A stretch of DNA of 64,000 bases from Escallonia rubra (taxonomy: Eukaryota; Streptophyta; Magnoliopsida; Escalloniales; Escalloniaceae), in assembly GCA_033065855.1 (NCBI GenBank), contig JAVXUO010002585.1:32501-96500 (forward strand), written 5' to 3'. Made by a program: the position numbers and the translations under genes. How positions within the stretch are numbered: the first letter of the stretch is position 1; each line of letters starts with the position of its first letter. Shown one piece after another: positions 6,521 through 60,194 of this stretch. The notes below the pieces were generated by a model. The model saw nothing but the letters and a program-made list of their open reading frames with translations. It made no database searches and was not told the origin of the DNA.

Positions 6521-6584
6521 ATTTCACGCTAAACTTTGTAAGAGTAACTAAATACACAAGTATAAGAGTAGTAATAAGAAATAA

Positions 6585-9673: not shown

Positions 9674-9718
9674 GCTCTTTTAACTCTCTAGGTGTTAACC
9701 AAAAAATCAAGAGCCGAG

Positions 9719-27790: not shown

Positions 27791-30254
27791 TATATACCTC
27801 TTCCCACTATGTGTTATCGGTATTCCGACTATCAGTTGTGGACGTGTCATTGTAATAAGCGGACCACGCCATTGCATTTGTGTCTTATTTTCAAGCATTT
27901 GCTCATGTGGGATCACCGTCGTTACTAGGGTCTGTTATAGCACCTATGTAGCTTCTCATCCATTCAAAACTTTATGTAGCTTGCTTCTAGCTCTGTACTG
28001 TGCTCTCCATTTTCCAACTTATGTTCATCTTACATGAGGATTCTTGCCAATTTGTGTTACTATTGATGCTTTGGTAACCACGCTTGGAGTTTTTAAGAAC
28101 CCGTTAAAATTATATTTAACGGGTTGGCAGTAAACATTCCTATGTTTGTGTGACAGTTTCTGGAACAACGTTATTTGCACGGCAACATATTCATCACATC
28201 ATTGTTGTTTTACTAATACAGTATTTACTAATAGTTAACGTGTTCGTCATATTGTTGTTCTCTTCCAATTTTTCACTCTTATATGAAGTAGGATCAAGCG
28301 AGACTCAATTGATAAATACTGTCAAGTTATCTGCGCCCAGATGATTAACAATTTAATTTGGCATTGACAAAACTCTCAGTTACTATTCTTTTGGAATATA
28401 TGAAGGAAGACGTAGAAATTCCAACAGAATTAGACGCTCGCAACGTTCGTTCTTTGAGATAGCTAAAGGTAAGTTTGAAAGGAATCTAATTTTTTATTAG
28501 TTATACCATTAAGTTCTAACATGTGACACTCAATTTTAACTAAAAAAATTTTGTATTCAATTGAAGATTAACTTGTGGCAAGCTAAGCTTGAGTTGGAAG
28601 AAAACAAAAGTAAATCTAAGGATAAATGAGGAGCAAAACTAATTTTTCCCCTATTAATCAAATAACAACGGCAAATTATAATAGTTATGGCAATGGTATT
28701 AGGGAGCTTTCGGTGGTAGATGTCACATTACAACGGTGGTGGGAACTGTAAAGATGACAATGATTGTGAAAATGATGGTGGTAATCAAATAGTCTAAGTG
28801 GCAGCACTGTTAATGAGACTGAGATTTGTAGTAGGTCTGACTAGCGATGGATGCAATGGTGTTGGCGTGTAGTCCAAGAGATTGTTGTACAAGAACCATA
28901 ATCGTAGTAATGGTTGCAATAATGATGACAAAGTTGAGGGTAGTGGTAAACATAATAAGTGGTGATTCTAAGCCTTAGAATTTAAGGTGATTAGAGGTAT
29001 GATTATCATGGTGGTTGACAAGTTATGCCCCATACGTTTATCTACTAGTTATAAGGTGTTTGCAGTGGTAGTTCCAAATATGCTCATTGATGGTGGTAGC
29101 ACTAAGGTGTTTCGAGGTAGTATCAATGTAGTAGGGGTGCATGAGTTATACTCTAAATCTGGATTTGGACAGTTCGAAGAAAATGACGTAGTGATTGATA
29201 ATATGAACATAACCATAGAAGGTACGTATGTTACTATTTTCCTTTTCATCACGCACCCACATTCATTTTTTGTGAAGTGCTTTGCATAAAGAAAGATATC
29301 GGATGACTCGATTAGCATTTATGCTTATAGGAATTTTCATATACATCACCAAGTTAAAGGAAAAAATGTAACTATTTACTAGATTCTATTAACAAAAACA
29401 AAACAACTACAAAAATCAGTGGTAATTTTCCTTCTTCATAGCATCGTGTCATATAAGATTGCTTTAACTTGGTGATTAGAATATTGATGCTTCAATATTA
29501 AGTTAAAAGGTATTGGACCTATGATTATATATTGGTACGAGATTGTTGCTCACAATTTGTAACTAAATGTCAACAAGATATTGCTTATGAAAAAGCATCA
29601 TAATACTGTCGACTGATGCCAAAAATTCCAAAATATTTCTCACTTCCCCGACAAAATTTTGCTCTACAACACAGATAGATTAGAAAAAATAAAAAAAATT
29701 AATGAAATTCTATTGTCAAAAGATGTAAAACACAAACGAGGTGGTCGGCTGCCTAGTGCCTCTAATAATGTAGTGGTGGGCGCAAATATCGTGTTTCGAC
29801 ATGCTTGTAACATAGTTCTGGCAGAGCTCTGACATTGTTAGCAGAGACTCAGTGTGTCATTCGTTCCTACACGAAGCCCTCTGCTTATAGGCTAGCAGTT
29901 ACGTCTAGAGAACACGTGATTTAGGCCTTTGACTTTTTAAAATAAAGGGATGTAGTCCCCCTTAATTATCTGAAACTAATTAAGTAGATTGACTAATCTT
30001 CCCTTAATTTCTTTTCATCAAACATGACGTAATTGAATTTTTCGGTAGCAAGAACAATGCGTGGGTCAAATTTATTTTTTTGGAGTAGTCCTTCCAACTT
30101 GTCTTTGACTTCGAGCCCGTTCGAGCCACACATGGCTCGCTGCCTTAAAATAGTTGACATGTAAAAAATAAGCTGCAATGCATCGTAAAAATATTTTTTT
30201 TAGTGTCTACATAAACGCCTCCGTCTTCTGCAATAACAGGTGTCTGTTTATCTA
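27791..30254. other. Intergenic DNA, no supported gene
   Basis: A perfect 12-base inverted repeat (AACCCGTTAAAA / its inverse) with a short loop lies at about 28098-28125. A 100-codon frame at 28987-29289 has no recognisable features. The interval 28640-28980 is rich in GATGG/GGTGG words and looks like decayed simple repeat. Confidence 0.4.
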
Positions 30255-30534
30255 TATCATGGGCTAGAATTGGTAGCACGCTTGAAAAGGGATCGTAGAG
30301 TGTTAGAATCTGTGCCAGGAGGGTTTCGTGTCTTCTTCATATTTTATTAACATTCGATCTATTTCACAAAGGCAAGTCGTGCTAAGGAGGAAGGGGAGGA
30401 ACACGGATACATGGAGGACGCAGTACAACGAAGAGTTGTATGATGTGTTTGGGACGGATGAAATGCTCCTGAAAAGGAATATAATGATTCTCTTTCAATC
30501 GGGGGGGGGGGGGGGCCCTTGTAGGTGTGATGAT

Positions 30535-30586
30535 TTACTACACGGGTGAGGGGTCTGGTTCAATTCCAGGATGGGCTGGCTGCGAC
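30535..30586 (+). pseudogene. trnI-GAU: Plastid-derived trnI-GAU 3' exon remnant
   Basis: GGTCTGGTTCAATTCCAGGA resembles the T-arm of plastid tRNA-Ile (GGTTCAAGTCCAGGA). The acceptor end is altered and the 5' exon is absent, so it cannot make a tRNA. Confidence 0.75.
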
Positions 30587-30640
30587 AACAAATGAATAGA
30601 ACAAGCATTTGACTTCTTCATGCCTGTTCCACTTGGCTCG

Positions 30641-30681
30641 GGGGGGGTATAACTCAGCTGGTAAAGCTCCGCTATTGCAAA
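30641..30681 (+). pseudogene. trnA-UGC: Plastid-derived trnA-UGC 5' exon remnant
   Basis: GGGGTATAACTCAGCTGGTA then AAGCTCCGCTATTGCAA follows the plastid tRNA-Ala(UGC) 5' half with a few transitions, and the trnA intron start follows directly. The 3' exon is missing. Confidence 0.75.
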
Positions 30682-30865
30682 TGGGTCGTTGCAATTACGA
30701 GTTGGATGTCTAATTGTACAGGCGGTAATGATAGTCATAACTACCTGGACTAGTGGCCCAACTTATGTAAGTAATGGGAAAGAAGACCAAAACATGCCAC
30801 TGAAATACCCTACTGGGACAACGGTGGAATGTCAAGCACGCAGAGGACTCAGGATGAGCAGATAC

Positions 30866-32112
30866 GATTAGCAAAAGTATACGGACGACGGGCATGATAA
30901 ATTGTCCTAGAAAGATGGTGGCAGTAGTCATATTCCTCAGCAACGCTCAGGTAACAGAGTAGTAGCTCGAACAAATGATATTCTGAACTTGGATTACAGA
31001 AATAATCTAACCGTTGAATATAAAAAATCTGGTAATCCAACGTAGTTTCTTAAAGCGACAAACTTCACGGTTATATGTAGTATGGAAAGTTAGAGATGCG
31101 ACCGGTGTCTAAGACAATCTCCATATATTTTGTTATCGTTTTCAAGAGTCCTTTGCTGCTGAAACGCTATATTTATCGCTAAACTACTTGTGTTACGAAT
31201 GATAACAGCGATTCCATTGTGGGTCCAACTTATTCCATACCAAGGGACCAAAAGGCCTTTTGCATAAAATGCTTATACCAAGAAAATGATAGCCCAGACT
31301 TAAATGTCTGGCATATATGGAAAAATTTGTTAGCATATACGCACAAGGTAGTTACAATTTTGGCCACTTGTTTCTGAATGATTGGAGAGTACACTTTAAT
31401 GTAGATTCAGAGTCACGACACAATACCGAGATTTATTCCTCCAAAATAGCTTGAAGATAAGTCATCTTCGTAACTACTGCAAAAATGTAAGATTTGCCTA
31501 GTTATGCCTTCTCATAAGCTCTCAAAGTTCGATTAACAGCCGCAACAGCCCTCCATCTCAACGTTGTCATCAAAAGGCATATCTGCTTGTCCATGCAGCA
31601 CAAAATACGAGTTATTATTACACGGGAAACACTGTGTGACACGCGGAAATTGAAGCAAAAGATATTGACCGTATTGAAACCATAAATAGCTACCTTAATC
31701 GTCATAAATTAACTGTGACCAAAAGTAAGAAATATTCTCCCCCAGCAAGTGGATGCTCTGCTTTGCTTCTGCTCAGCATTTTTGAAATGTCCTCACCAAT
31801 TTTCACCTGTCAACAATTTACATACTTCAAAGTTGTGCGAACAACGTATGGAAGAATTTAATTGGGTGAAAATGAAGAAAACCTTAAGCATTGTCGTGGT
31901 CGATCAAAACGGATTGCCCAACAAAACGGATTGCCCAACCGATTCGCCATCTCCAGCATAAACTGTTTATCAGTTTGCGCCACATAAAATGCTGAAAACA
32001 AAATGACACGAGGTTTTGCAAATGCAAACTAGCATATTATAGCAGCAAATTTACAACAATGAGTAGGAAAAGATGATATACACCATGTACACCCTTTTCT
32101 CAAGTAACATGC
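30866..32112. other. Intergenic DNA, no clear gene
   Basis: Short minus-strand frames near 31500-31720 might be 3' sequence of the neighbouring peptidase gene, but no motif supports that. Otherwise unremarkable. Confidence 0.35.
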
Positions 32113-34020
32113 CTTAGGCTTTGCTAATCTGCTCGATTTCAGCGAGCAGTCGCGACCTCTCAGTGTTACGCTCATTCAGTAATAAGCCCACGACTGTCTC
32201 GGCACAATTGTCTCAACCTCACTCTGAAACACAATCACAATAAAAAATTAAGAAGTGTGCGGATCGTTAGGCTAAAATTGAGGATACAATTTTACTTGCT
32301 GGGTCTATACCCGCTGGAATTATACTCACCGGATCCATAACAAAATCCATTTTTCCATACCAATGCTCCAAATATTTTATCAAGTATATCCCACAGTGAC
32401 ACCTACAGAAAAAACGGGTAAAAGACATGACACTATTAGCAACGGCATAGATACATGGTGTCAACTAAACCTCAATGCTAGCAAAATGCGTATGCGAAAA
32501 AACATTCCACATAACAGTTCTACTTTTCATATGGATTGTATGAGGTACGGTTGCAAATGCAGATGACACATTGTATGCAAGCCAAACTTGGCAAAGTTCG
32601 TAAATCATATGGTATAATAACATACACTCGCTGCTGGCATGGCAGTGACATCAGCCTTACATAAAGTAGGTTGGAAGGATGTGTGTGTGGCACAAAGAGA
32701 AAGGGGGCTTGGCTAAGAAACCTCCACGGTTGAAAATTCACCTTCTGTGGATAAATACATGTTAGACCTCACCGCCAGGAAATATACTATCTACACCAAA
32801 CTGTTAACGAACGTTGGTCCTCATTCACAAACCAGGCAGCCCAGAGGTAAAATACAACCACTCATTAGAAACACAAAGGGTTTGACCATAGGCAATAAAA
32901 GCTTATGGTTTCGGTCAGGATTTTGGTGCTCTAATGGTCTTGTTGGTTACTCAATATGGAACGAGGGCGGTATATGATGCTGCCAGTTCCTTGAACCTGA
33001 AGGTGACAAAGGATCTGGCTCATGGAACCATGGGAATACAACTACAAGATCTCCAGGGGTAAGGATGTCAACAGCTCAGGCATCAGAGGTTCCTAGGAGC
33101 GATGGCAGTGGGGATGAAAGTAACCGGTTTCCCCCATAAAATATGTCTGGGCTATTTTTTACCCTAATTGCTGCCTGGGTTCACTGTCCCGTTGTAGCAT
33201 GGTGGAAGATAATATGATTTTCTGGGCACATCCCAATATGTGGCTTCATATTATGGCTGCTGTCAAAAATCAAAATAAGGACTAGAAATAAAAACAAACA
33301 TGGAGTATAGTAGATGATGATCTGAGTAACCTAGGTTCTAAGCAGTAGAAGAGAGTTGAGCATCTCTCCCGTTCATGGAGTGCAAGCTTAGTAAAGAAAT
33401 CTGGAATCAAGCACACTTTACAAACTTCTCATCACCGTGAATTTTAGCACACGCACACAAATCCCACGATATGCTTTCAACAAGTTTAGGGGGAAAAGTT
33501 CTGGAGCCAAACTACGTAAACTAGATGTGGCTGTTACAATATACAGTGGATGGGAAAAGAGAAAGCAGAGGATAGTCAATGAAAATCAGCAAGGGAGGCC
33601 TAAGACCATAACAAGGATTCAAAAGTGGAAACTCTATAGAGTATTGAGGTGGTAAAAGGCAGTGGCATCCAATACTAACAAGCAGCTATGCCATCACTGG
33701 GAATTACCCTATAGCAGTGGTGCACGTATGAGGCCCAATATACACGATAAGGTTTATTTTCTAGGTGTAGTTGTAAATTGATTTGGCTGTATGTTGATTT
33801 TTGGGTTTATTCATTGGCAATAAAGGACCTTCTACGAATAATAAAAAACATATATGGGCCGGACGAAGTAAATAACTCTTACGCAATGGTATCCCGTGGA
33901 ACATTGGTAGGGACGAAAGCAAATGACGCCGACGTGAAAGAGGTCCCTCCAATCACATCTGCCACGATAAGGGATATGACCATCCCCTACATAATAAGAT
34001 CGAAATAACAACCGTTAGCT

Positions 34021-34116
34021 ATTAATGAGGGAACGAATTGATGTGCAAATGACACTAGCAGCAAACCAATGAGGGAACGAATTGGTATGCAAATGACACT
34101 AGCAGCAAACCAATGA
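34021..34116. repeat. Tandem duplication, about 45-bp unit
   Basis: AATGAGGGAACGAATTG followed by GCAAATGACACTAGCAGCAA occurs twice in tandem, and a third copy of the first word follows. It lies in the intron directly after the His exon of the downstream Ulp1 copy. Confidence 0.7.
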
Positions 34117-34374
34117 GGGTTACCATTAGGTTAACGGCGTGTCTCATTCCGGGAAGAAGAGTTGTACTTGATGGATCCAAGTACTCCATGCTCGACGTAA
34201 GGAGATTGAAAGAAAATGCCACCCAGTGATTCCTTCTTCACAACATAGGCATTATGAGCTGAAACATCCATATGAAGAACAGTTAAATCTATGTGAATAT
34301 ATCATGAGCGTGCACAGAAAATGAGTCTTCTAACTCTTCCCCAAGATCATTTAAACACGAGAGGTTGTAAGAAA

Positions 34375-34447
34375 TTGGGCATATTTACCATCTGGCAGGA
34401 GTTAAGGTTCCTCTTAATCCGGTTCGGCATATTTACCATCTGGCAGA
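34375..34447. repeat. Direct repeat, about 51 bp apart
   Basis: GGCATATTTACCATCTGGCA occurs at about 34376 and again at about 34427. On the minus strand it falls in the region where the third peptidase exon of this copy is expected, so a duplication has probably disrupted that exon. Confidence 0.6.
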
Positions 34448-36985
34448 ATTTCATCATCCATCCGTGATTTTGAGAGGTAAGATGTAACGCTAGGCTACAA
34501 TGTGCATAGCATCGTGTTAATTCAAAATGTAACAAGGCATTGGAGCAACTATTCAAGTCATAGTCCCATCTTCTTTAGGTAAGCATTAATGATACTGGTG
34601 AAAATGAAAGAGTACCAAATGTAGAGGTACGTACCGCAAAGAAAGTGGGAAAGATGTATCGCTCTAGCGGGCCATTGCTCTCGGCGTTTATAACCCTGAT
34701 AACCATGTCGACAACCTGCATAGATAGCCATAAATTATAACACATGACAAATAAACCCACCTTGTCAAATCGTCATTGCATTTAAATGGTACTCACGGCT
34801 GCGCCAACCCAGTTATTGCCTTCCATGGTCGAGATATCAAACCTCGTTAAGTGGTAGTCGTACATACTTATCAGGACCTCTACAAAAGGCACAAACATAT
34901 ACGTGGGAAACCGATGAAAGGAAGCCCTTAAAATTGAATTCATAGAAAAAGGGAATGCCTTATTTACTATGTGCAAGTTGAACAATGTTCACCTTCTGTG
35001 TAGAAACATTGTGAGTTAGGACAACGGGATTAAAAGCACAGAGTATTGGTGGCCAAAGAGTCTAAGAGGAGAATAACGTTGCTAGTACTGTGAAATGGCT
35101 TGTACCTCGGATCACGGGAGGATGAAAAGGCATAGCTTAGTAAATCTGGCTTTTTAGCTAAGCTACATGCCTCTTGAGTGGTTGGCAGCTGACCGTTAGC
35201 ACCAGTTGTTGCCGCGTGCACCACCGGGGGTTGAATGTCATTCAGTGGATGGAGAATCAACCTGGCAGCAATCTGGACTCTGTTGTGCTTGACCTCGGAC
35301 TAACAACATAAGCATTATGTTAGTGTTGCATGAAGATATGAATTTACTTGCAATCGTGTATACTAAAACATTGCAAAAATTTTAATACAAACAAGATCGC
35401 TACACTGAACTTGCCCCACCAATGCTCCATAAACTTTAATGTATACACTCCGCAATCATCACTGAAATAGTTCATAACACACCTTATTCAGTACTGTCAT
35501 TAAGAGGATGAAGTTAGGAACGGAGTTGAGAGAAGTTATGGTTACAAAGGAACGACTATCGTACTCGTTTGTTTATTTTGGGCACAGATGACTCTGGAAA
35601 GCATAAGGCTGTAAGTCAATGTCTCTTCCAGCTTTATGCCTCAACATAAGTGTCAGGACGCGGGCCTAAGCACAGCAAAGGTTAAACGTATTATGATGCT
35701 CTACTTTATCTTATATCCGTTCAACAGCTGTAATAAATGCCATGGCTGAGTATATACCAGGTGCCTGCGAAAAACCTCAATCTCATCCAAAACACTGTGT
35801 CGACCAGAGTCGAGGTGGTCGATCCACCCCCTGTTGATGTTGATGCAGAGCATAAACCAATGATAGTTCTAGCAGATTGGCACGGAGAACTAAAAAGGGA
35901 AGAAAAATGTAGTACCTAAGGTGAGTCATTAACAATACACTTAAAATGGTTGATATAAAGGCGATGTCAAGTGCAAGAAGATCTTGTTTTTTGACAGTTA
36001 GTGCCATCTTTGCATGTATGCATGTGAACCTTGCAAGTGCACAAAGCCAATTTACAGATAGAATACTGCTACGAAAGAACTTAATGACCAAAGAGTATAC
36101 CAACTGGACATCCTCCATTTTAATCAGAGGGTCAGCATGTTCAAAGAAGCCGAAGAAAAAGTCAGAGATCTCATCGTCGGACCTGACGGCATCCATGAAT
36201 TTGATAACTAAGGACTGCACTTTATATAGGTGTACATGGCTCAGTTTCAAAATAATTGGAGCGAATGAGCAATACTCAAATTGAAACGACGTAAATCACC
36301 GCAAAGTCTGAAGCAAATGTGTAACGTAGCACAGAGCCTGAACGATCGGCATTGATGACTTCCGACCACGTATCAACAACCTAGAAACATAAGGCAGGGA
36401 TTACTTTCTTGAAACCTCGTTGATGTGTATTGATTGCATGCAAAGACGTTTGACCATTGATATCAACTGAACCATGGGATATGCAATATTATTCTCATCG
36501 CACTACCGTAAGTAACGAATGTTGACATATGAAATTTAAATAACAAGTGAGGAATCATTTAAAAAGTTTTGTTACCATCCATGAAAACATTTTATTTCTT
36601 GCATTATGCAATGAATGAATGAATGGACTATGCAACTGAATTCGACGGTGAGTGCAGAGTAGTAAGAATGGAACACATGTATGCACTCTGTGTTTGAAAC
36701 ATGTACAAAGGCTGAGAGCACAACCTGCCATTATCAAATATGTAATGTGATTGAGAAGACCACATTTAGTCTATGAGGCTGATCACAGTCACCAATGCTC
36801 CAGCCTAGCAATTCATTTTACTTGGACAACTTATATAAGGGAACCATATGTAGCAGACCCAAGCAACCAATTACTAAAATCGAATGAGGCTTCCTTTTAC
36901 ACTATTTGAAGCTGTTAAAATCAATTGTAAGCCAACGCCTTTAGTATAAAAGTATCGGTCGTTACGTTTATGTAAATAAAGATAG

Positions 36986-37011
36986 AGGATCTGATTGGTT
37001 TGTGATTATCA
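36986..37011 (+). repeat. 26-bp flanking direct repeat, left copy
   Basis: AGGATCTGATTGGTTTGTGA then TTATCA, identical to 42925-42950. Sequence similarity stops at both ends of the repeat. It lies just outside the left inverted repeat of the 37.0-42.9 kb element. Confidence 0.85.
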
Positions 37012-38417
37012 AAATCTATCCTTTTAAAAGGAAGAGGTAAATTGAGCTATTCTATAAACATGAAATGTCATAATTTGAGTGGTCTCTAGACTAAAGTTGG
37101 CATTAATTAGAGCAGAGTTCAGATATGCTCTAACTGAAGGTGTTAAAGCTGACATTAATTGAGTGGTCTCTAGACTAAAGCTGAATAAAATTATCTACCG
37201 AAGGAAATGAGAGCATGGACATTGTTGCAAAATAGTGTGTTATTATCTGTGTTAGTGAACGACCTTTTTCAACTAATAGAAAGCTAAATCTAGTTTCATA
37301 GTACTCTATATTTACTTGATAGAAGAAAGAATAGGAAAAAGGTAATCTCTTTTTGAGTTGGGAACTTTTATTAGTACATGCCACTTTTCTAGTTTGGTGT
37401 GGTATCTATTTATGTGTTAGAGTGCCATTATTGACACTCCTTAAATTGTTGGTGGCATTCTATTGACTACTTGTTTCTTCACTTGATCTGTATAAAGAAC
37501 AACTGTGCAAAACGATACTTGGAGTGCCATTAGCAGTTCAGAGAGTGCCAATATGGCTACTATTCTTGCAATTGGAACAACTACTCCGAGTGATGCTTCA
37601 AGTTTATATTAATTTAACCGTTACTTGTTGAAGTATAAACTTCTTGTTGAGGTCGTGATATTACGGGTTCATTGTTTTTACATCTTATTCCTTCCAAAAG
37701 ATCATAAACATATAGTACTGTGAAATTTATTGAATTTATCGAATTTTCATAATATAGACCTTGTAGAAATGTAGTGTTGTCAAAGCGATAATGTTCTAAA
37801 ACGGATATTGTCGTTTTACCTACCTTCAGTGACGAAAATATCTTTCCACCTACCTATATATGTTAAACTCCATCATGCGTTCCATCAACAGAAGATTTCA
37901 ATTTTTATGTTTCTCACATGTTTCAAAAAATGTTTGTCAATCACTTGCATTAGCTTCAAAATGGATTATCTTGATACTGTTCTGGAGATATTTTGTATGT
38001 TAGGTTCCTTAGATCAGTACAGATCTATTCGTGCCAATTGTAAATTGTTGAATACTAACATCAAGTTGATGCTTTCTTTCCTCATTTTCTTCAGACAGAT
38101 GGGACACAAGTCACATGTATATAAAGTGTCACAAGAGTAGAAGTTAAAGATTACTATTTATAAGTTAGAAAAAAACCTAAAAGTCCTACCATCTCCCTGT
38201 TTCATGTAAAAAGTAGATGGCATAACATTCATATGGAAATTTCAATAGATGTGCATGATAACTGCGATTCAGAAAAGCGAAAAAGTTTACTTAAATTGCT
38301 TATGGATATTAACATTTCATTATACAATATGTGTAACAAGCAACTAAATTGTTTCACATATAATATTAAACCGTATAGTTATGCCACAAATATATATTCA
38401 AATACAACGGCATGCAC

Positions 38418-39144
38418 TGTGATACCCCGGAAAATACCGAAAATTAATCTAATCGTGAGTTTGATTAATTAAGGAGTGCTATTTTTATTAAGTAGCATCA
38501 TGTTGGTGATAATTAAGTGTTAAGGAGCTAAATAAGGGGTTAGTGTGGCCGTGGGGGTTGAAATGTAATTTTGGAAAGTTAAGGGGCAAAAATATAATTT
38601 TGGAAAATATGATGAACGGGGATGCATATCTTTATTAAGTAGCATCCTTTTTATGATAATTAGGTGTTAGGGGGCTACATGGATGTTTAGGGTGATTTTG
38701 GGGTCAAATTATAATTTTCAAAAATTGAGGGATCAAAATGCAATTTTAGAAACTTGAGGGCCAAAGTGCAAATTTTGGAAGTTGGCAAAATGTGTCATAA
38801 TCTGAGGAAATCAGACCATGCACGATGGCAACCTCCTGGTTGCAATAAGCTGAGTCAAAGTGGGAAATATTAAAATACTTTGAGAGAAAATCTGGTGTGA
38901 AGAAATTATAAAAAGAATTTGGGGTGAAAAATAGAAATAATGGAAACTGAAGAACAACTCGTGAACAGTAACAGCAAGAAACAGCTGGAAGAAAAAAGGA
39001 AGAAAAAGAAACGGGGAAGAAGGAAAAAGAAAGAGGGGAAGGAAAATAAAATGGGGAGAAACCCTAAACCCATCATGGAATGATCTTAAACCCTAATTGC
39101 GAAAAAAATTGTGGGAATTGGATTGAATATTGGTTCAACTCAGC

Positions 39145-39220
<76 letters not shown>

Positions 39221-42008
39221 CTTCGGGTTTGTTAGTGGGTATGATTGTGTTTAATTGAATGAATTAGATGTATAAAAGTGTGTTCGGGGCATGATTGGAT
39301 GGATTGCAATGATTTTAAATGATTTAAGATGAGTTCTGGAGGAGATTCATGTGCGATTGAAAGAGAAACCAGGAGTGTGAAGCTGAAGGATGAAGAAGAT
39401 GAGTGTGTGTGCGTGAAGGTGAAGTAGTGTGTGTGTTGATGTGAATAGTGACTGTTTTTGTCACTAAAGGTGAAAATGAAGTACACAGTTTAAAATTCTC
39501 ATTTTTAAAAATAGTTAGGGTCCTATTTAGCCAAAGTGCAAAAATAAACCCTAGCTATTTTTAGGATACCTGTATCATGGAAACATTTCAGATTTTTCCG
39601 AGGTCAGGAAGGGGGTGAACAGACGTGGGAAGTTTGCAGTGAAATTTAAAATATCAAATGAACGCGATTTTGCGCAAAAATTTTTATGAGGACTCTATAA
39701 TGCTGAGAAGTTTCATTTCCCAAGATTTCGGGTCATTCCAAAGTCGTTAGCTATTTTTGGCCGAACGAGCTTTTAAGCGCTCGGTCCAGACACCGGTTCG
39801 GGATTTTTGGGTGAAAATTTTATAAAAATACTTTTTGGCTCAAGAATGAATTCAGGAGGCTTAAAATAGCATTTTAAAGTACTTTTGAGATTTTTCTGAT
39901 GCCGGGAACCCTCAGGGGGTATTTTGGTAGTTTGCCACCCGGAGATGGGTATTTTGATAATTTTCCCGGTAAAGTTTTTCAAAGGACTTTTTAGTCCAGA
40001 AAGAGTTGTAAAACACTTAAAAGGTTGTTTTGAAACAGATTTGGGGCGTTTGAGTGGTAATGAACCGTCAGGGAGTATTTTGATAATTTGCCATGTTGAC
40101 GCCAAATTTTAGGGAATGCGTGTAATTTAGCGTTCGAAATGGTGTAAAGTGAGGAATTATGTTAATACGTTGAAATAATGAGATAGTGGCTATTGCTAAT
40201 GCGTTGGTAAGATAAGTTAAGGATCCAATTATTGGATCGGATTAACAAGCTGTCGTAAGACGCTATAAATGATTAAATAGGAAGGGGTAGAATTGGGAGT
40301 GCGTATATGTGGAATGGTTTCTAACGAGCAGAATATTATTTGACTAGGTGATGCAGCTCGTTGCGATCAGAGATTGCGAGTTGGTTCGGTTATAAGCTAA
40401 TCAAGTAAGGACAATGCGGTTCTGATATGCTAATTCATTGTTCGATTAGCATGCCATGTTGATGACGTGTTGTCGAATTCTTGTCGCTATGATTGGACAC
40501 CGGTAGTCATTGTGACCGGTATATGCATATTTGAATTGTGTTGTTGAGGACTTCGGGTAAAATAAATTCCCTTGGTCCGCCCTGTTGATAGAATTTAATG
40601 AGGATGATGCGTGTCCTAGTATGCTATGATTCGATTCGATTAGCATACCTGAAGTTGATGATGGTATTGTGTAGGGTTGTTGTGTGTGGTTGTGAGATGC
40701 CGGCAATTATTGATAGCCGATATCTCTTCTCTTTGAGAACAGCATTGACGACTTGTGGCAACTTCTCCCGAGTCCGCCCTATCGTTGATGATGATGATGT
40801 AGAGATCGTTGCGTTGTTGTTGTGAAATGTCAGCACTTATTGATAACCGACATTTCTCTTATGTAAGAACGTTGTTGAGGGCTTGCGGTAATCTTCTCCC
40901 AAGTCCGCCCTGTTGATGATGTCACGTTGAACTCTTGTGGTTAGGTCTGAACACCGATTGATCTTCTAATCCGGTATTCCTTGTTGAGTTGTGTTGTTGA
41001 GGACTTAAGGTGGAATAAATTTTCCCTTAATCCGCCCCATGGATGAAGTCTTGTTGCTTGGCTGTTATATGGTTAGGGAAAGCACTCTAAATGAGTTCCC
41101 TGATTGTTGACAGTGTCTCTTCTATTTACTTGAGACTGAGATGAACATCCCATAAAATGGGACATCAATATGAGGATGATGGCCTATGAATTATAATCAC
41201 TGGCCAAAGAGGAGGAATGTCGCTCGAGCAGAGTTTGTTGTGTCTGGTCAAGTCTTGTCCGTCGTGTCCATGTGCATTGCATTTGATTTTCTTTTGATAT
41301 TGATGATTTTAATGATTTGTATTTCAATGATGTTTATCTTTATGACCTTGGATTTCGGGTTCAATTGCATAGTCGGTCAGTCAGTCCAGTCCATGAGGAG
41401 GTGGCAGCAATGCTGTTCTGTTGGGCCTTAAAGCCGCTCAGTCTAATGAAAGAAAAATTATCGTTTGACAATTATGCTGATGTCGAAAATTTATTGGAAC
41501 TCTTGATTCATTCCTATTGTTGAGATGATTATTATTCCTCCGAGTCTCTTGAATCATTTGTACACAATACTCCTCGTGTTGTCTTTACTGGGCGATTTGC
41601 GCTCATTCCTTATGTTGTATTGTGCAGGCTATAAGGTTGATCAAGGAGAACCTGCTGGAAAGGAAAAAGAAACAAGCTAGAAAAGTTGAGCAATGGGATC
41701 AGTTGTGTGAGGTAAGACCAGCTAGGAATGGTGGGATAAAGATTGAGTTGCGAGATAGATTGTTAAGAGTCCTACGACTACAATCGTATATTAGGTTGTA
41801 AACTCTCATGATGTTTAAAGACTTGAAAGTCTTCCGCTGCAGTATGATGTATGTTTGTAAGAAATTTTTTGTAAGGACGCAATTTAGAGCGTCTATTAAT
41901 GATGTATGAGTATAACGATGTAGTTGCTCTGTATTCAGCACAGGGTTTTGAATGTGATTATGGTTGATAAGTCAGCCCGGTGATGTCACCTGGGTTGAGG
42001 GTGTCATA
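38418..42008 (+). repeat. Large solo LTR (3.6 kb), probably Ty3/Gypsy Tekay/Del type
   Basis: It begins TGTGATACCCCGG and ends GGGTGTCATA. TGCAC flanks both sides exactly (38413-38417 and 42009-42013), a perfect 5-bp duplication. A related copy in opposite orientation lies at 50473-53390. The interior has the shared stretch GGGGGTATTTTGGTAGTTTG and no coding domain. The large size and TGTGATACCCC start suggest the Tekay/Del chromovirus group; that is from memory. The solo state implies loss of the interior by LTR-LTR recombination. Confidence 0.82.
39148..39219. repeat. Compound (TA)n(TG)n microsatellite
   Basis: About 19 TA units followed directly by about 17 TG units, inside the large solo LTR. 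Confidence 0.9.
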
Positions 42009-42345
42009 TGCACTCTGAGAATAAGCAACTATCTCAATGTTAGAAGTAAAAACTATCACCAAGATTTAAGTTATATAGAACTGAAAGAGTAGCTGCATCC
42101 GGTTTGTCTGCATACCTAATATTCTCGAAATTAGGTGAAAAATTACGATATACTAATATCACATGGTCAATAATTTTATTTGCCTGTTAAAAAGTATCAG
42201 TGGTGTATGACATCTGAATTATCTTTTTGAGATCCTGATCTTGCATTAATCTGTTATGGCGAGTAGAGAGCATACTTTACATATCAAATTCAGGTTATAA
42301 ACTCATAATTTGTTTTAAGGATTTTTCTCTTGCACCCAATACTGT

Positions 42346-42747
42346 AGGTACTGCGTCTGGTGTATCCAGAAGTGATAGGACAGCGGAAGATTCTGCCACC
42401 CCCATGTCTAGGGTAAGTGCTGAAGCCAATGAATCATCTGCTGCTCCCATACACAGGGGAAGTGTTGAACACAACCCCTCATATGCCCGTCCAATCCATA
42501 GAGAAAGTGTTGGACCCTCCCCATCATATGCTACATCCACCCATAGGGATATGGATGAACACATTCAACCCAATGCATCCTCATCTTCTGTTGTCTTGGA
42601 AGTTGAGGATACTCATATGGCTGCAGCAGTGGAGCACCTATCTGGACTGACTGGAGACTTGGGAACTCCTTTCACCTACTTAGCTAGTTTATCAGTTGAG
42701 TGGGCTGCAATGAGGGACACATCTCCTAGTGTCCTGGGAATAATTAA
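42346..42747 (+). pseudogene. Exon-like fragment with a threefold internal peptide repeat
   Basis: The frame opens after a plausible 3' splice site (ACTGTAG|GTACTGC) and closes at a 5' splice site (ATTAAG|GTGTGT), giving about 134 codons. It contains three imperfect units of about 19 residues: APIHRGSVEHNPSYA, RPIHRESVGPSPSYA and TSTHRDMDEHIQPNA. The C-terminal part is LEVEDTHMAAAVEHLSGLTG. I do not recognise the protein. It lies inside the inverted-repeat element, so it may be a captured gene piece or part of the element's own gene. Confidence 0.4.
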
Positions 42748-42924
42748 GGTGTGTTTGTATATACATTTCTCCTTTGAATATATGATTTTAACACCTTCAG
42801 TTAGAGCATATCTTCACCCTTCTCTAATTAATGCCAACTTTAGTCTAGAGACCACTCAAATTATGACATTTCATGTTTATCGAATAGCCCAATAACCATA
42901 AGTTCACTAGATTTATCATACTCA

Positions 42925-42950
42925 AGGATCTGATTGGTTTGTGATTATCA
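42925..42950 (+). repeat. 26-bp flanking direct repeat, right copy
   Basis: Identical to 36986-37011 and in the same orientation, lying just outside the right inverted repeat. Confidence 0.85.
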
Positions 42951-44812
42951 TGCTAGTTGGTTATTCGCGTTCTAAATATCTAAACAAACTGCTGGAAGAG
43001 GTATATAGAGATGTCGTACCTCGGATGAGACCCAATATTGCCCCTGAAGCGTGAGAATTTGGTCCTTTGTCAACAAGGTTTGAGGCATCTTAATGACAAC
43101 CTCACTGTTGATAACAAATGAAAATAATAGGAAAAGTAATAAGAACTTCTATAAATAGAATGACCCAAAAAACCCCAAAAGGCTTAAGCAGATTCCTTAC
43201 CTCGTAGGGACTTCGGATCGGAAGACGTTCTTCACCGCTTCATTTTCAAGCCTTGAAAGCATCACCTTTTGTTCACCAGCAATACGAACAAAGGGGCTCC
43301 TTGTCGTGTTAGAGCACTTAAGCCTTCTAATTGGAGCAGACCTCCTCTTTGGACGGGGACGGATGTTTGAGGCTTCGGTCACAGCCCCTTCTGCAATAGT
43401 ACGACTGCATGTCCTTCTCGTTTTAAAGGACAACTTTGATAAGGGTACGAGAAGGTCGGCGGCCAGAGAAGAATCCTCCATGTTGTCGCCACTCGGAATC
43501 GGTGGTGAACGGTGAAGGCTGGCACGTTTGGAGTGAGCAGCTACAGGAAACATTTCGATTGCAGGAAGGGAGGAGAAGGATCTTAGGCCCTTAGATACAG
43601 GTTCGTATAAGGCGCTTTCATTCTTCGGAACGGTCGGCCATTTTTCCCTCTTGCTCCTTCCAGTAGTGGCACGACCTGAAACAGTCCGAATCTCATGCTC
43701 GGATGGTGATAATAGTAGCCGAGCTCGAGGTGTCGGGCTAACTTCAGGTGATGATGGCTCCGTAGAAGCTGCAGCGCCCTTCTTTGCAAGGAGGAACTCC
43801 TCATGTTCTGGCAAGTGACGCACAATCTCCGCAAACTTGATTACCCACTGCAAATGACTCAAATTTAGTTGATACAAAAACAAATTGATTTGAGGGAGAA
43901 AAAAAAACCCAACAAAAGAAAATAACTTCAGTCCATTGACTTGCTAAGCTACGTACATGAATAGTGAAAGAGGTGCTAGCAGGGGTGGAGGAGACATCCG
44001 TGTCATTTTCTCCACGATTCTCCAATTCAACGCGGCTAGTTATACAGTGTGGTGTCCAAGCTGCCATATAGGGACTTTGAACCTCTCCGATGTCGAGGAC
44101 GCCACATGGAGCTTTGTGGAAGTAAAAAACTGCATGGGAAATGTCATCAGAGATCAGGTCAATAATAAACATAGCTCGATATTAGAATGTTCATATAGTA
44201 ATTGCCTACCATCAACAACGCAACGCAGCCATTGATACCAGTTTTGGTCCTGCCTTGCTTGAAATTGGTCACTCCTCGGACCAGTTTATCAAGGACAAGC
44301 TGCGACCAATTGTACTCTGCGGACGTTGATACTACAGATAGGGCATGAAACAAGTCGACAGATGGCTTGCCCCTCGTGGGACAAAGAAACGTACTCAACA
44401 AAAATAGCAAGAAAGCCAGACAAAATTCCTCATTGACCACTTGTACACTCGTGAAGTACGAGGCCAAGGCCTTTACACTCATCCGAGAAAAACGATCTCG
44501 AATGGGATGCAAGACATCATTGTCAATGAATGTTGGAACTCGTTTGCCCTTGTAGAGAATGCCTAATACGAGTCCAACATCACTGACATTTACACGTACG
44601 GTTTCAGTCTTGCTTATGCGCATCTTGTGCGTCTACGGGTCAAATCTATCAACAAGGCCAAGTAGGAAACTTCTTGGCAACGTTGAACAATGCATATTGA
44701 AAAAAGAATGAAAACCCATTGCCTCAATTGTGGATGATTTGGCGGCATTTTCTTGTAGACCATCCATCAAAGCAGTAACCATCCTTGGGTTGCACCGGCT
44801 CTCGAAGATTGC

Positions 44813-45334
44813 CTGCAATAAGTTAGTCTTGCTATCAATAAGGGCATGTGCAGTACATTTCCATATAAAATCTTTGTAAAATAACACTGTCCAATTATAA
44901 TGCAAGTTCCAATGTGTGATTGCTGAGTGTATAGAGAAGTCATTGTGCCTATGCAGCTTTCTCCTTGACTGTTTGTAGAGTGCTTGTATAGCTTAGCAGT
45001 GTACTGATGTTCTGGAGTTCATGAAGTACATAGGACCTTTACCCCCAGAATGAAAAATATATTTTAATTCAAGTTATGTGCTAAGTTCATGCGGGTGTTC
45101 TTTGTGACTTAGCTGGGGATTATTATAGAAGCGCAATGGACATGCAGATGAACTGCGCATAACGCGCAACAGTGGGAAAACTTGCTGCCACTTTGGCAAC
45201 ATGCATTGAAAATGAAAGAACCAGTGCACTGACCTGGTATTGGGATGAGGATCATAGAGTGTGATGGATGAGACAGATGTCGGATGACAGAACAACCAGG
45301 GATGTGTCGTGCATGACGTACTACATAATGTAAT
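44813..45334. other. Sequence upstream of the peptidase exons, no supported exon
   Basis: A minus-strand frame at about 45074-45295 (HWFFHFQCMLPKWQQVFPLL) could be part of an upstream exon, but no splice sites or motifs decide this. Confidence 0.3.
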
Positions 45335-46557
45335 GGGCTAATTACACCTATGTCCCTGAGGTTAGGGGGTAATTACACTCAATGACACAAAGTTTCAAAA
45401 TGTAACACTTATGTCCAATGACAAACGAAATACAAAAATACTTAACGGTTTTGACAAAAAGACCTATTTGCCCCTAAATAAAAGTTGAAATCCTGATTTG
45501 CCCCTGAGAGGCAGAAAACGGGAAAGTTTTAATGCCATTACATCCCACCCCCTCTTTCTGTCACTGAGCAACCCCATTTCTATCACTCCTACACGAACGG
45601 GTCCTCATCAGTGTACGTAGAAGCCACACGCATCCATCACCGATGTGCTGCCGGCAGCTTGGGGCGATGGAGCTGCCGGGTGCGCGAACGGGTCCTCAAC
45701 CATGGAATCGTGCTCCGAGGCCAGCCAATCCGGATCCCTGTCGTGATCTCTTCGACCCGAACGCCAGTCGTAATCATCTATCCTTTCAGCCGAACCAATA
45801 CGACCAGAGCGCGACGGCAGCAGAGCGTTGATTACTCGGCGAGTAAAAGCGGGGAGGCGGCGGCGGCGGAGAACGGAGTCTGGCTTTCCTTGACAGGGTC
45901 TGGCTTCACAAAAGAACGGCAGTGGCCGATTGAGTGGACTTTGATCTGGGCTAAGGGTGGCGTGGTGGGGGTAGGGTAAGGGGGAAGAGGGAAGGGCAGC
46001 GACATGGTGAAGGGGAGAAGGAAAGAGGCGGCGGCGATGGGGTTTGAGTGATGGGGCGGTAGCTCCATTGAAATTCAGAAATGATGATGGTTAGAGAGAG
46101 AGAGAGATAAAGTTAGGGTCTCAAATTAAATCCAATAAAAAAACACAAATTTGAAAGAAGAAAAAAGAATTTAAATCTGTAATTTGATTTTGGGAAAAAA
46201 GACTTAATTTATATTAGAGAGATCCTAATTTAAAAAGATTAAAACCTTAATTTGGAGAGAGAGAATTAGGTTTTGAAACACTAATTTGGTATTAGGTTTA
46301 AAAACCTAATTTTGTAAATTAGGATTTTTAATTTTTATACAGTGTATATGTAAATATGTGGTATAAGGGTAGTATTGACATTTAGAAAATACGCATGGAT
46401 GACATCAGCAAAAACATACACTTTTTGGACGGAACCCTGACGGATGGACACGGCTGATACATTTGAAACACGTTTGGTCACGGAATGTTACATTTTGAAA
46501 CTCTGTGTCCTTGACTGTAATTACCCCTAACCTCAGGGACATAGGAGTCATTAGCCC
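45335..46557. mobile_element. Non-autonomous MULE, copy 2
   Basis: The terminal repeat begins GGGCTAATTACACCTATGTC then CCTGAGGTTAGGG, with its inverse at the right end. TAATGTAAT flanks both sides exactly (45326-45334 and 46558-46566), a perfect 9-bp duplication. The interior has a G/C-rich stretch (about 45600-46070) with open but unrecognised frames, and AT-rich DNA with AAACCTAATTT words. No transposase is present. Same family as 520-11473 and 60418-61533. Confidence 0.92.
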
Positions 46558-46817
46558 TAATGTAATACATGTGTTCACAACCTATCCGGACCGCACCCCA
46601 GGGCCCGCTAAGAGACTCCACTGGCATGACATGTCACCCGCGGACCGCACCCAGGGCCCGCTAAAAGACTCTAGTGGCACGACACGTCACCCGCTCGGTA
46701 GTCAAATTTGCTCAACATCATTCCTCGGTCAAAACGCTCCGATGCTCAAAGCCATGCTCGATCAAAGCGCTCCGCGCCTTAAAACATTCAGACAGATCGA
46801 AAGTACCTCCCCCCCGA

Positions 46818-47095
46818 GGGGTCGGCCGCCCACTTTGAAAGGGGGTCGGCCACCCCCCTGAGAAGGGGGTCGGCCACTCCCCTGACAAGGGGGTCAGCCA
46901 CCCCCCTGAGAAGGGGGTCGGCCACCCCTTTTGTGAGGGGGTCGGCCACCCCTTTGTGAGGGGGTCGGCCAACCACCTTGTGAGGGGGTCGGCCACCCCT
47001 TTTGTGAGGGGGTCGGCCACCCCTTTTGTGAGGGGGTCGGCCACCCCTTTTGTGAAGGGGTCGGCCACCCCCTGAGAAGGGGGTCGGCCTCCCTT
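46818..47095. repeat. Tandem array, 24-25 bp unit GGGGTCGGCCACCCC
   Basis: About eleven units follow the pattern AGGGGGTCGGCCACCCCTTTTGTG with small changes. The units encode a repeated ADPLTKGV/GWPTPSQK peptide on the minus strand, but this is a by-product of the repeat. Confidence 0.9.
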
Positions 47096-47189
47096 GTCCT
47101 TAAGGGGGGAGGGGACCTGCTTACCGCTGCTATCACCACTCAAAGCATTCAGCAATGCTCACTCGTCGCTGGTGGTCGTGTGACGCCCA

Positions 47190-47640
47190 TTGTCGCCCGC
47201 ACAATCAACCGGGGCTCCGGCCCTCACGGCGGGACGGGCTCACAACCCTAAAGCCCTCGCCGGCACAATCAACCGGGGGCTCCGGCCCTCGCCCGCACAA
47301 TCGACCCGGGGCTCCGGCCCTCGCGGCGGGACGGGCTCACAACCCTAAAGCCCTCGCCGGCACAATCAACCGGGGGCTCCGGCCCTCGCCCGCACAATCA
47401 ACCCGGGGCTCCGACCCTCGCGGCAGGATGGGCTCACAACCCTAAAGCCCTCGCCGGCACAATCAACCGGGGGCTCCAACCCTCGCAGGGACAATCAACC
47501 GGAGGCTCCGGCCTTCGCCAGCACAATCAACCGATGGGCTCCGGCCTTCGCAGCACAATCAACCGGAGGCTCCGGACTTCGCAACGGGGATGGGCTCACA
47601 ACCCTATGGCCATCGCCGGCACAATCACCCAACGGGCTTA
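47190..47640. repeat. Second GC-rich tandem array (ACAATCAACCGGGGGCTCCG)
   Basis: Roughly ten degenerate units contain CACAATCAACCGG(G)GGCTCC, grouped into a higher-order unit with GACGGGCTCACAACCCTAAA. It lies within the same LTR-like block as the 24-bp array. Confidence 0.85.
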
Positions 47641-48462
47641 AGGGGGCTCCATTCGCAATGCCCCGGCACGAGGACCCTTCGCCACAGACTCTGGACATCA
47701 AGTTGCGAGCATGTGCACTCATGTTACCATTGATCATCGACACCACCAAGGCAATGAACCGCGAGTCACTCCGAGACGGGAGCAGGTCCTCGGAGGGCAT
47801 CGTGCCCGGCACGCCTAACAGTTGGCTGCAGGGACAACCCTCACCGCTGCCAGGATCTCGGCGCGTCTCATGACGCATCTCGTGGGATTCAGTAAGGGCT
47901 TGGACTGGAGGCTGGGGCAACGGGCTACTCTGACCATGCTACCGCAATGTGGTCAGTCTCCTCAGACAGGCAGAGGGACGCTGCAAAGGCAGGACGACAC
48001 GAACTCGGGGACCGGCAATTCGACGGACAATCAAGACTGCGGGACCCCCTACGGCGACGTGTCACTCCCGGAGGACGACACGTGTCGGCTGATGACACGC
48101 GCATATTTGTGCCTATATATAGTGGATTCCGGAGCTTATTCAAGGATTCGGCCTCATTTGACACTTTCATTTTTTTCTTTCTAAAACCCATTCTCTCTGG
48201 ATTTCTAGTGAGAGAAAGACATTTGGACTTACGACTTCGAGCTCTCGACGTCGCACTCTTGACACGGACTGTCGACCGCTGGCCCTGTTCGTCATCACCC
48301 TGCCTGCGCGACACTGCCAGCCCTCGCGACCTGCCTAAGGGGCCTTGCTCTCAGCCCTTGCGCCATCCTTGATGTCTCCCACTTTGCGTACTTGGAAGCC
48401 AACTCAGACTACATCCCTTGTGGCACCTCGACATGGCAAAGGACCCTCTTTCCGCACCAACA

Positions 48463-50472
48463 ACAGGCTGCAGCCACATTTTGAAAGTCAACTTAATGGA
48501 TAAATTACACAATCTAAGTGTAGCAGAAAAATTATGCACAGGTGAATGAAAATCCAAATTTGTCTACCTTAGAAAAAATCTGTGAACGTTATGCCTTCAG
48601 CACATCCACTAGTAGTGGAATCGTGCAAGGCTTATTTAGGAGGCTTTTAATTATGTTTTCATTTTGCAAATCATGTATAATGTGTATGTAATTTACTTTT
48701 CCTTTTTCTTTTGGTCTCCAATGCAATGAAAATACAAATCCTTTCTAGCGTGCTACCTTCGGTTTCAATAAATTTTCATGTTGTCATGGCCATATACGTC
48801 TTAGGTAATGTTATTTCTATTTTTTAAATTGTTTTTTGATTATCGCCAGACGAGGAATGTTCTTGGCCAGCCTGAAACTGGCAATTATGTGCAGTAATTA
48901 CATATCTTTTCATATACAGTTAGATTTGGTTGGCATCTTCTTTGCCTTCCAAACCCCAAATATCTTTTTCTAGCAATTCTTTATTTGATTAACACACCAT
49001 CATACAAGTGTTAGCTTCCAATTAGCTCAAATAATTAATTCTCTTATTTCCCAAATACAAAAAATAATTGCTAATTATCATGAAATATAACCACCCTAGC
49101 CCATGATCTCCCTACCACCATGTTTTTAGCCACCACTTCATTACCTTCCCTGTAAACTGAAACCGTTCCATCACCTTTCGGAAAGAAAGAAACCAAAAGA
49201 AACAGAGAAAAAACACAAAGCAAAAGAAAGAAACAAAAAAGCAATTACAGACAAGGTACACTCCAACTAAGTTAATTACATGTCAGTGTGCCACCATATA
49301 CTGCTTAACATTTCTCCGTTCCATTCAGTCACTTCGTGTTTGTTTGTATATATGTACTCAGATTATGACACAAGCCTCTCAATAGAGCCTTACCATCTCA
49401 TATTTGTAGAAGTTTATATGTCAATTTATAACAAAATTTCAAACATGGTTGTTTCATAACATGGTGGATTACAAACATATTTCTATAAGTTGTTTCGGAG
49501 CTTTCTACCAAACTTTCTTGAAATTTTTTCTCATAACGGCTTTTGAAATGACACTGTAGTCTTGCATAATTTAACCAACGAGATATAAACTTGGAGAAGG
49601 AATTTGAGAAGAGTTTGTGCCCGTGTTGTGGGGGTGCTCTCTGTGGGTATTTGATTGTGTGTGTATGCGTGTGTGTCACCTTAGAGCGGTTGAGCCGATG
49701 AAAGCGTTACTGGGGCCAAGTGAAATCGGGGCCGAGGGAAAGGAGGTCACTGGTGGGAACTGGAATATCGTCGAGCATGCGATCGTCAAATACCCATTTG
49801 GCATTATTCTCTTAAGGTGGTATCATCACACCGGGCAGGATGGCCGGAATTGTGCGGGCGATTCTTTTCCAATGGGATTCTAGACAGGTTGTTTCGCAGG
49901 TCTGAAAACTATTGCAGTTATTATTGGGATAGTCAGGAATGCTGAAAAGGAGTGAGAGATTTGTCAAAGTTGGCGACATGTGATAGTTTGGACTATGATA
50001 ACAACCCACCAGAAGTGGCTTCGGGTGGTAGGTGCCTCCATAAAAATGAAACAAAACATGGCCTCAAATTTCTTATTGGATAGTACCCTGTGTGCCCCGT
50101 CTGAGTGCGTGACCGATGGTTTTGCGGTTGCGCAACGTATGAAAGTTATGGGCTGCTTCCACTGTCTACGTAGGAGCTCCGTGTTGTGTGTGTGTTGAGT
50201 TTCTGTGCGTGAATGGAGGGGCAGAGGAGGGGAGGGAGGGAGGTGCTGTATATGCGTCCGTGCTGTGTGTGTATGTGACTTTTTGCGCATTTCATAATCA
50301 CGTCAAGATCAATTACATTTCCTACTTTTAATTCCTTTGACTTTTCACATATTCATAGAACAGAAATCAAAGATGTAAACTTTAAACCATACTCAAATAG
50401 TAATTGCATAAGAAATAAGTATGGGTTAACCAGTAGAACTAGCGGAGAAACAAGTCAAACAACGAATAAAGT
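48463..50472. other. Intergenic DNA, no supported gene
   Basis: Short frames near 49617-49883 (plus) and 49964-50290 (minus) have no recognisable features and overlap GT-rich simple sequence. No element ends were recognised. Confidence 0.35.
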
Positions 50473-55507: not shown

Positions 55508-56260
55508 TTGTTCCCGTGCTTAGCACGGGGACATATCTCCATTGTGCCATCACTGGCAACATATCTCCAGATGTTTGGAGTTTAGAGAGTCTGGAGACAC
55601 TGGACCTAAGTGAGAACAGGCTTGTTGGGATGCTGCCATCAGTTCTCTCTACCATGAAAAACCTCAGAGAACTTGTGCTTGATGACAATAGTTTCTCTGG
55701 CAGTATACAGTCAACAATTGGTCTCCTCAAAGAACTTAAAGAGCTCTCTGTCCATGCAAACTCATTTTCACACAATCTTCCAAATGAACTAGGAAACCTA
55801 TAGAATTTGCAGTCCCTTGACCTCAGAGTAAAACTTTTCTCTAGAATCTTTCCCTCCAGTTTAGGCAATCCTACAAGCCTTCTGTGCTTTGATGCTAGTC
55901 AGAATAGATTTACAGGACCAGTATTTCCAGAAATTGGAAACTTGATGGTGCTTAGAACTATAGATCTGTCATGGAATTCCCTGAATGGATCTTTACCAGC
56001 AACAATTGGCAATCTACGAGATCTACGGGTACTTAATCTCCAGAGTTGCAGGTTCACAGGAAATATCCCGGAGGAAATCTCAAAGCTAACTAACTTGGCT
56101 TCCTTGGATATAACGTAGAACAATTTTGAGGGGGAACTTCCATCAAGCTTAGGCAGGCAGACTAATATAGTTTACCTTCTTGCAACCAATGCAGGACTAA
56201 GTGGGAGAATAGAAAATGGAAAAAGAAACAAGATGCAACAAAGGACGGGTGAAAAAAGGA
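55508..56260 (+). pseudogene. LRR receptor-like kinase fragment (EMS1/MSP1-like), decayed
   Basis: About 235 codons in one frame encode plant extracellular leucine-rich repeats with SGxIP-type units: ITGNISPDVWSLESLETLDL, LDDNSFSGSIQSTIGLL, DASQNRFTGPVFPEIGNL, LNLQSCRFTGNIPEEISKL and NNFEGELPSSLGRQTNIVYL. The order and wording recall the EMS1/MSP1 class of receptor kinases; that match is from memory. Two in-frame TAG codons break it, at 55801-55803 (where Q is expected in GNLxNLQSLDL) and at 56116-56118. There is no signal peptide, membrane span or kinase domain. It is a partial copy that similarity leaves abruptly near 56250, with no parent gene in the window. Confidence 0.85.
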
Positions 56261-60000: not shown

Positions 60001-60194
60001 TCTTTTCTCAGGGGTACGGCCTAAATGTCCAACCCCCCGTAGTTTATGATTTTGTTTATCATTAAATCACAGGCTAAGCCTATTTAACCAAAAAAAAAAC
60101 CCTATATATTATGAGTCAACCTTGGGATTACTAACTCGATGTCTTTACCACGAAACTATTCATGCATAACAATAAAATGGTATGAAATGAATAC

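Follow-up and report, generated by a model that had tools for sequence, protein, structure and literature searches.

Paired Ulp1-like peptidase domains in Escallonia rubra as probable cargo of a giant Mutator-like transposon

A tandem pair of Ulp1-like (C48) peptidase exon sets in Escallonia rubra very probably belongs to a dead copy of a giant Mutator-like transposon with terminal inverted repeats (TIRs), which carries a multi-exon peptidase gene. The original prediction for this locus had offered two readings, an old transposon locus or a duplicated host family. The former is supported by dispersed copies, a shared TIR and perfect 9-bp duplications in four of five TIR pairs; the latter finds no support in the dispersed copies and TIR-bounded relatives. 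The tandem pair is explained as transposon cargo, and for annotators this means that dozens of such loci should not be counted as host SUMO proteases. With its many copies, the family also allows selection analysis to address what transposon-borne Ulp1 domains do.

The window, i.e. the whole stretch of 64,000 nucleotides analysed here, corresponds to C1762:32501-96500 in an assembly of 566 Mb and 3222 contigs. The peptidase unit was compared in an alignment of the window with 19 relatives (20 copies). Positions 1-28000 and three extra blocks within the element hold 75 frames of at least 85 aa, 10 of which were scanned, and further frames from the largest block (5.9 kb) were included in a Pfam scan of 133 frames. 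The scan of the 10 frames showed that the window also carries other transposons as well as ordinary genes of the plant (ALMT, MRP-L53).

Exon structure of the peptidase unit

The two exon sets are present where they had been placed, head to tail on the minus strand, and their exon plans match. The His-Asp-Cys order was borne out as HW, LD and DDCG in the upstream set (B) and as HW, LD and HCG in the downstream set (A), and so were the near-equal exon sizes (85, 81 and 132 nt in B; 83, 81 and 135 nt in A). Exons b2x, b3y and b5 are additional to those named before. In 5' to 3' order of the minus strand, the unit consists of the following exons.

44162..44812, minus strand: N-terminal domain exon with a weak plant-mobile-domain match; stop codon at 44635-44633
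43201..43847, minus strand: basic linker exon, fast-evolving (dN/dS 0.70)
43020..43104, minus strand: exon b1, 85 nt, with which peptidase domain B begins
36300..36380, minus strand: exon b2, 81 nt, from the copy alignment
36101..36214, minus strand: exon b2x, 114 nt, from the copy alignment
35758..35889, minus strand: exon b3, 132 nt, with the catalytic His and Asp; interrupted by a stop at 35871-35869
35586..35665, minus strand: exon b3y, with the Gln that precedes the catalytic Cys by six residues; putative donor site
35389..35461, minus strand: exon b4, catalytic Cys (DDCG); 3' end uncertain
35106..35299, minus strand: exon b5, last part of domain B, perhaps linking it to domain A
34797..34879, minus strand: exon a1, 83 nt in the window (85 in relatives), start of peptidase domain A
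34635..34715, minus strand: exon a2, 81 nt, from the copy alignment
34124..34258, minus strand: exon a3, 135 nt, with the catalytic His and Asp; interrupted by a stop at 34240-34238
32330..32402, minus strand: exon a4, catalytic Cys (HCG)
32176..32223, minus strand: possible exon a5, with a TGA at its end by reading

AG/GT splice signals were found at most exon edges in most of the 20 aligned copies, with a few exceptions per junction. The size mismatch of 85 versus 83 nt is due to a 2-bp deletion in a1 of the window copy; the stretch is 2 nt longer (85 nt) in 18 of the 19 relatives, and the remaining one, L024, has another deletion. The donor position of b3y was set such that Gln would fall six residues ahead of the Cys (QSHLDDCG). 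In the C72 copy the Cys motif of a4 is retained with a stop behind it, and a5 is not retained.

Profile searches confirmed the C48 assignment for set B, while set A was only marginal and remained just under the cut-off. Spliced B matched PF02902 above the cut-off with E=9e-12 in the window copy (with X at the stop) and 8e-13 in one relative. Spliced A gave E=0.0014-0.002, with 18.5-19 bits against a cut-off of 20.7. In a single comparison of exons that we picked ourselves, b1-b3 and a1-a3 were identical at 29 of 92 positions (BLASTP E=2e-17). A profile built from four B readings found the SENP5, SENP2 and SENP3 chains at E=0.0002-0.0005 but yeast ULP1 only at 0.16. Domain B, with its PF02902 match above the cut-off and its His, Asp, Gln and Cys, is of the C48/Ulp1 type.

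The expectation that the upstream copy carries the N-terminal domain of MULE-borne Ulp1 genes, DUF1985, did not hold. No DUF1985 match was detected in this domain at E<=1 with the HMMER filters on, which remove most matches above 0.1. Of the matches obtained, only that to PF10536, the plant mobile domain (PMD), was relevant, and it was weak (E=7e-5 to 4e-4; 20-23 bits against a cut-off of 34.9). NCBIfam gave no match.

Dispersed copies and element termini

The search for further copies and their flanks revealed many dispersed copies, in which the same terminus is found beside unlike flanks. Using window positions 34200-36400 as query (2.2 kb; set B from b2 onward plus a1-a3), at least 40 places including the window itself were found at 80-90% identity, the best 40 of 66 first-look candidates being scored. 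The match was full-length at 31 of the 39 other places listed, which indicates that the peptidase pair moves as one unit. The N-terminal part occurs at no fewer than 42 places including itself, with the best 40 of 81 candidates scored. In the 21 relatives common to both listings, the distance between the N-terminal and peptidase parts is 0.5-0.9 kb in 16 and about 2.1-2.2 kb in 5. The two parts lie 6.8 kb apart in the window copy because a 5.9-kb block is present there that is missing from the C58 copy. This block splits set B, a feature absent from the original prediction, and 107-bp inverted repeats and a 26-bp direct repeat lie close to its edges. Following collinear pieces outward gave the element the extent and features below.

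28500..62928, minus strand: element as followed in collinear pieces, by homology from 62.9 kb to 28.5 kb
62929..62937, minus strand: 9-bp flank, candidate target duplication, partner not found
62829..62928, minus strand: 5' terminal inverted repeat, reading GGGAAAATTAG... on this strand; its outer end lies at 62928, and the 100-base inner limit is arbitrary
55495..56115, plus strand: leucine-rich-repeat (LRR) gene fragment within the element, in opposite orientation, also present in the C58 copy
50473..53390, no strand: block of about 2.9 kb, missing from the C58 copy, probably an insert
45335..48462, no strand: block of about 3.1 kb with GC-rich tandem repeats, missing from the C58 copy, probably an insert
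37035..42947, no strand: 5.9-kb block between b1 and b2, missing from the C58 copy

The terminus starting GGGAAAATTAG is shared by the window, C72, C58 and C312, and their flanks differ. When the first 22 bases of the TIR were searched with at most three mismatches, 586 matches were obtained (282 forward, 304 reverse), compared to 6 and 5 for a reversed-pattern control. Among the places listed are a number of inward-facing TIR pairs on one contig. Five such pairs were retrieved with 100 bases at each end, and identity was counted over 80 ungapped bases. It amounted to 80 in C972, 79 in C67, 77 in C2773, 75 in C2000 and 48 in C1684, where the left TIR end diverges beyond some 40 bases. A perfect 9-bp target duplication flanks the pairs of C67, C2773, C2000 and C1684 and is absent at the TIR pair of C972. 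Long TIRs together with 9-bp duplications are marks of the Mutator superfamily.

Among the matches listed, the N-terminal part and both peptidase sets fall within the TIR pair of C2773 (29.65 kb), both sets within that of C67 (37.0 kb), and the set-A part within that of C2000 (27.9 kb). All or part of the unit is in this way surrounded by three pairs with TIRs identical at 75-79 of 80 bases, perfect 9-bp duplications and spans of 28-37 kb; part of these lengths is probably nested insertion. C972 has only 5' sequence in common among the matches listed, and the C1684 pair is evidence on the ends only. No 3' TIR was found in the window between 18 and 31 kb, where local alignment scores were not above those of shuffled and opposite-strand controls, and the matches listed include no combination of target duplication and TIR on the window's contig. 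The membership of the window copy consequently rests on homology and on its 5' TIR. A reading as an LTR element was rejected; the direct repeats in the C72 stretch do not mark its two ends but sit side by side inside it or coincide with the start of the TIR in a nested family.

Selection, decay and the number of genes

The exons of the peptidase unit evolved under purifying selection. In the 20 copies the differences at codon positions 1, 2 and 3 were 0.077, 0.077 and 0.125, versus 0.133 in non-exon bases. The dN/dS values were calculated as pairwise means, which are not independent since the copies are related; they were 0.35 for set B (b2-b4) and 0.30 for set A (a1-a3), each in 20 copies, 0.38 for the N-terminal domain (27 rows, the exon being largely present in 12) and 0.70 for the linker exon. 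Introns read as codons in three frames gave 0.82-0.94. Catalytic residues are largely kept, in B the His in 17, the Asp in 19, the Gln in 19 and the Cys in 18 of 20 copies, and in A the His in all 20 and the Asp in 19.

Decay is also widespread. The tested exons, a set that excluded b1, b5, a4, a5 and the N-terminal exon, are open in 10 of 20 copies for B, in 10 of 20 for A and in 6 of 20 for both; 3 of 20 copies are open in both sets with all checked residues kept. The N-terminal exon contains a stop in 6 of 12 copies. The window copy is dead and without a recognisable 3' end. It has stop codons in the N-terminal exon (44635-44633), b3 (35871-35869) and a3 (34240-34238), which had gone unmentioned in the earlier reading, as well as the 2-bp deletion at a1 and the three extra blocks of 3-6 kb.

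The pair had been described as two tandem genes. The two exon sets are real, but they are probably parts of one gene with two peptidase domains. As judged from the exon phases, we favor with some reserve a single protein with an internally duplicated peptidase domain, because b5 and a1 would join in frame, in the same phase as the linker and b1. Both a1 and b1 start in phase 2, which is also the phase supplied by the b5 donor in the five copies printed; the join is broken in the window copy by the 2-bp deletion. The single-gene model is weakened by b5 itself, of which the first 60 nt are constrained (dN/dS 0.11) and the last 44 codons are not (dN/dS 1.43), and by a b5 frameshift in two copies. 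These observations would suit an element with two distinct peptidase genes in tandem, where the N-terminal domain belongs to the first and the peptidase exons were duplicated within the transposon, since an unconstrained second part of b5 is expected if the first gene stops soon after 35240. However, a1 in the relatives needs an upstream exon, as an ATG-led frame just before it runs into stops; the b5 donor phase fits in the five printed copies; and the unconstrained part of b5, read in the window's frame, has a stop in just 1 of 20 copies. Two separate genes are thus a possibility to be taken seriously, albeit not the one we would choose. The product of the single gene would have a PMD-like domain at its N-terminus, followed by a basic linker and by two C48 peptidase domains in tandem.

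Mobility, origin and relation to known elements

The observation that no mudrA-type transposase lies nearby held in profile scans of frames of at least 75 or 85 aa, in sampled parts without the 3' part of the element. The longer-reaching of these scans took in the C72 stretch and window pieces at 28.0-45.3, 48.5-50.5 and 53.4-64.0 kb (133 frames, minimum 75 aa), the other one nine further loci (74 frames, minimum 85 aa); neither found a transposase family at E<=0.01. Elsewhere in the genome MULE transposase domains gave at least 150 matches (the best 150 of 3309 candidates), and this abundance makes movement in trans possible. Since no transposase was found in the parts read, the elements are probably mobilised in trans by a Mutator transposase whose gene lies elsewhere.

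Two other explanations of the peptidase unit were weighed. A host ULP/ESD4 family that had multiplied through segmental duplication would account for the multi-exon structure, the purifying selection and the resemblance of domain B to SENP chains, but the dozens of dispersed copies and the three surrounding, near-identical TIR pairs with 9-bp target duplications make it highly improbable. No duplicated host family is needed for the pair, because it is a decayed copy of one transposon-borne unit. The unit could also be a passenger in a non-autonomous Pack-MULE, as functionless for the element as the LRR fragment that sits in the same element. No transposase was found in the sampled parts, and only 6 of 20 copies are open throughout the tested exons of the two sets, as a passenger would have it; yet its exons show dN/dS values of 0.30-0.38, unlike the introns, and the checked catalytic residues are kept in 17-20 of 20 copies, so that we regard a mere passenger as less likely than not.

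The protein might protect the element by deSUMOylation or by an anti-silencing action, a role already proposed for proteins of the KIU/VANC type in other MULEs; we consider this suggestion plausible but still short of probable. Even more tentatively, and rather as a speculation, a giant (28-37 kb) Mutator TIR lineage without its own transposase would have kept one PMD-like, double-C48 protein under selection across dozens of insertions, for anti-silencing or deSUMOylating action in trans.

Classic Ulp1-MULEs of the same genome likewise carry a C48 peptidase beside a MULE transposase domain, the mudrA-type and C48 matches converging 1.8-3.0 kb apart at eight places. The C48 sequences retrieved from eight loci are only distantly like domain B. 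Assignment to this class was rejected, as a tblastn search of the window and the 28-kb C72 stretch with those L001-L008 frames that reach 140 aa returned nothing at E<=0.01; one L007 query frame is the C-terminal part of a mudrA-like frame, judged by its position beside the MULE match. CACTA elements have CACTA termini and 3-bp duplications. Membership among CACTA elements with ULP domains was rejected because the termini here start GGGAAAATTAG and the duplications are 9 bp long.

In the literature, as far as the accessible portions of the sources go, ULP domains are reported in TIR MULEs, non-TIR MULEs and CACTA elements (PMC2528002), and PMC10398659 contains nothing on such transposon-borne domains. 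Among the titles listed in a search chiefly of non-subscription literature, none concerns tandem C48 domains carried by a transposon. Kaonashi of Arabidopsis (KI-MULE/KIU) is, in the excerpts available, likewise a high-copy MULE with a C48 peptidase gene (PMC6117577, PMC13317346). KI-MULEs are described as non-TIR elements with ULP in reverse orientation to mudrA (PMC2528002), whereas the Escallonia elements have TIRs and no mudrA in the sampled parts; Kaonashi membership, which requires non-TIR ends, was rejected. KIU-carrying Vandals induce hypomethylation of related elements according to the consulted section of a review, which groups KIU genes with the anti-silencing protein VANC of VANDAL elements, likewise a MULE accessory protein (PMC13317346). 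A figure legend gives the VANC domains as DUF1985 and DUF287 (PMC5735166), while DUF1985 was not detected in the Escallonia unit. PMD-carrying MULEs similarly bear a plant mobile domain, but in the available text it is fused to the transposase (PMC5418596), as opposed to a weak PMD-like domain ahead of peptidase domains in Escallonia.

The ULP1-carrying TIR-MULEs of melon and grapevine are, in the accessible part of their description, likewise Mutator TIR elements with a C48/ULP domain (PMC2528002). In the grapevine element the ULP lies downstream of a transposase frame (same source and extent), whereas no transposase was found in the sampled parts of the Escallonia element. The Escallonia unit further differs from both in its two peptidase domains and in TIR-bounded spans of 28-37 kb. 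Ulp1-carrying TIR-MULEs are already known, and the paired domain and the size make the Escallonia element a variant of them.

Repeats and gene fragment within the transposon

In the window copy of the transposon, the block at 37035-42947 carries near its edges 107-bp inverted repeats that are 94% alike, together with a perfect 26-bp direct repeat. One copy of the inverted-repeat unit is retained at the corresponding place in the related copy on contig C72. Two further features lie inside the transposon.

46817-47630: GC-rich tandem arrays, with repeat units 24 bp and 97 bp long, within the 3.1-kb block
55495-56115, plus strand: LRR gene fragment

The LRR fragment, which is probably a captured gene, is also present in the related copy on contig C58, and the corresponding interval of the C72 copy is shorter. 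A second repeat family is nested in the C72 copy (C72:31465, minus strand) and has the same TIR start as the transposon.

Other features of the window

The frame scan identified two ordinary host genes, and domain matches marked two other transposon frames.

4247-6523, minus strand: hAT transposase frame, 759 aa, stop-to-stop (PF05699 and PF14372)
7973-9679, minus strand: copia-type gag frame, 569 aa (PF14223)
15441-16061, plus strand: MRP-L53
19422-21853, minus strand: aluminium-activated malate transporter exons

Ulp1-MULEs elsewhere in the genome

Domain searches of the Escallonia rubra assembly found convergent MULE-domain and C48 matches 1.8-3.0 kb apart at no fewer than eight places (contigs C272, C2268, C27, C1209, C1738, C2254, C2265 and C2764). 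These eight are classic Ulp1-MULEs.
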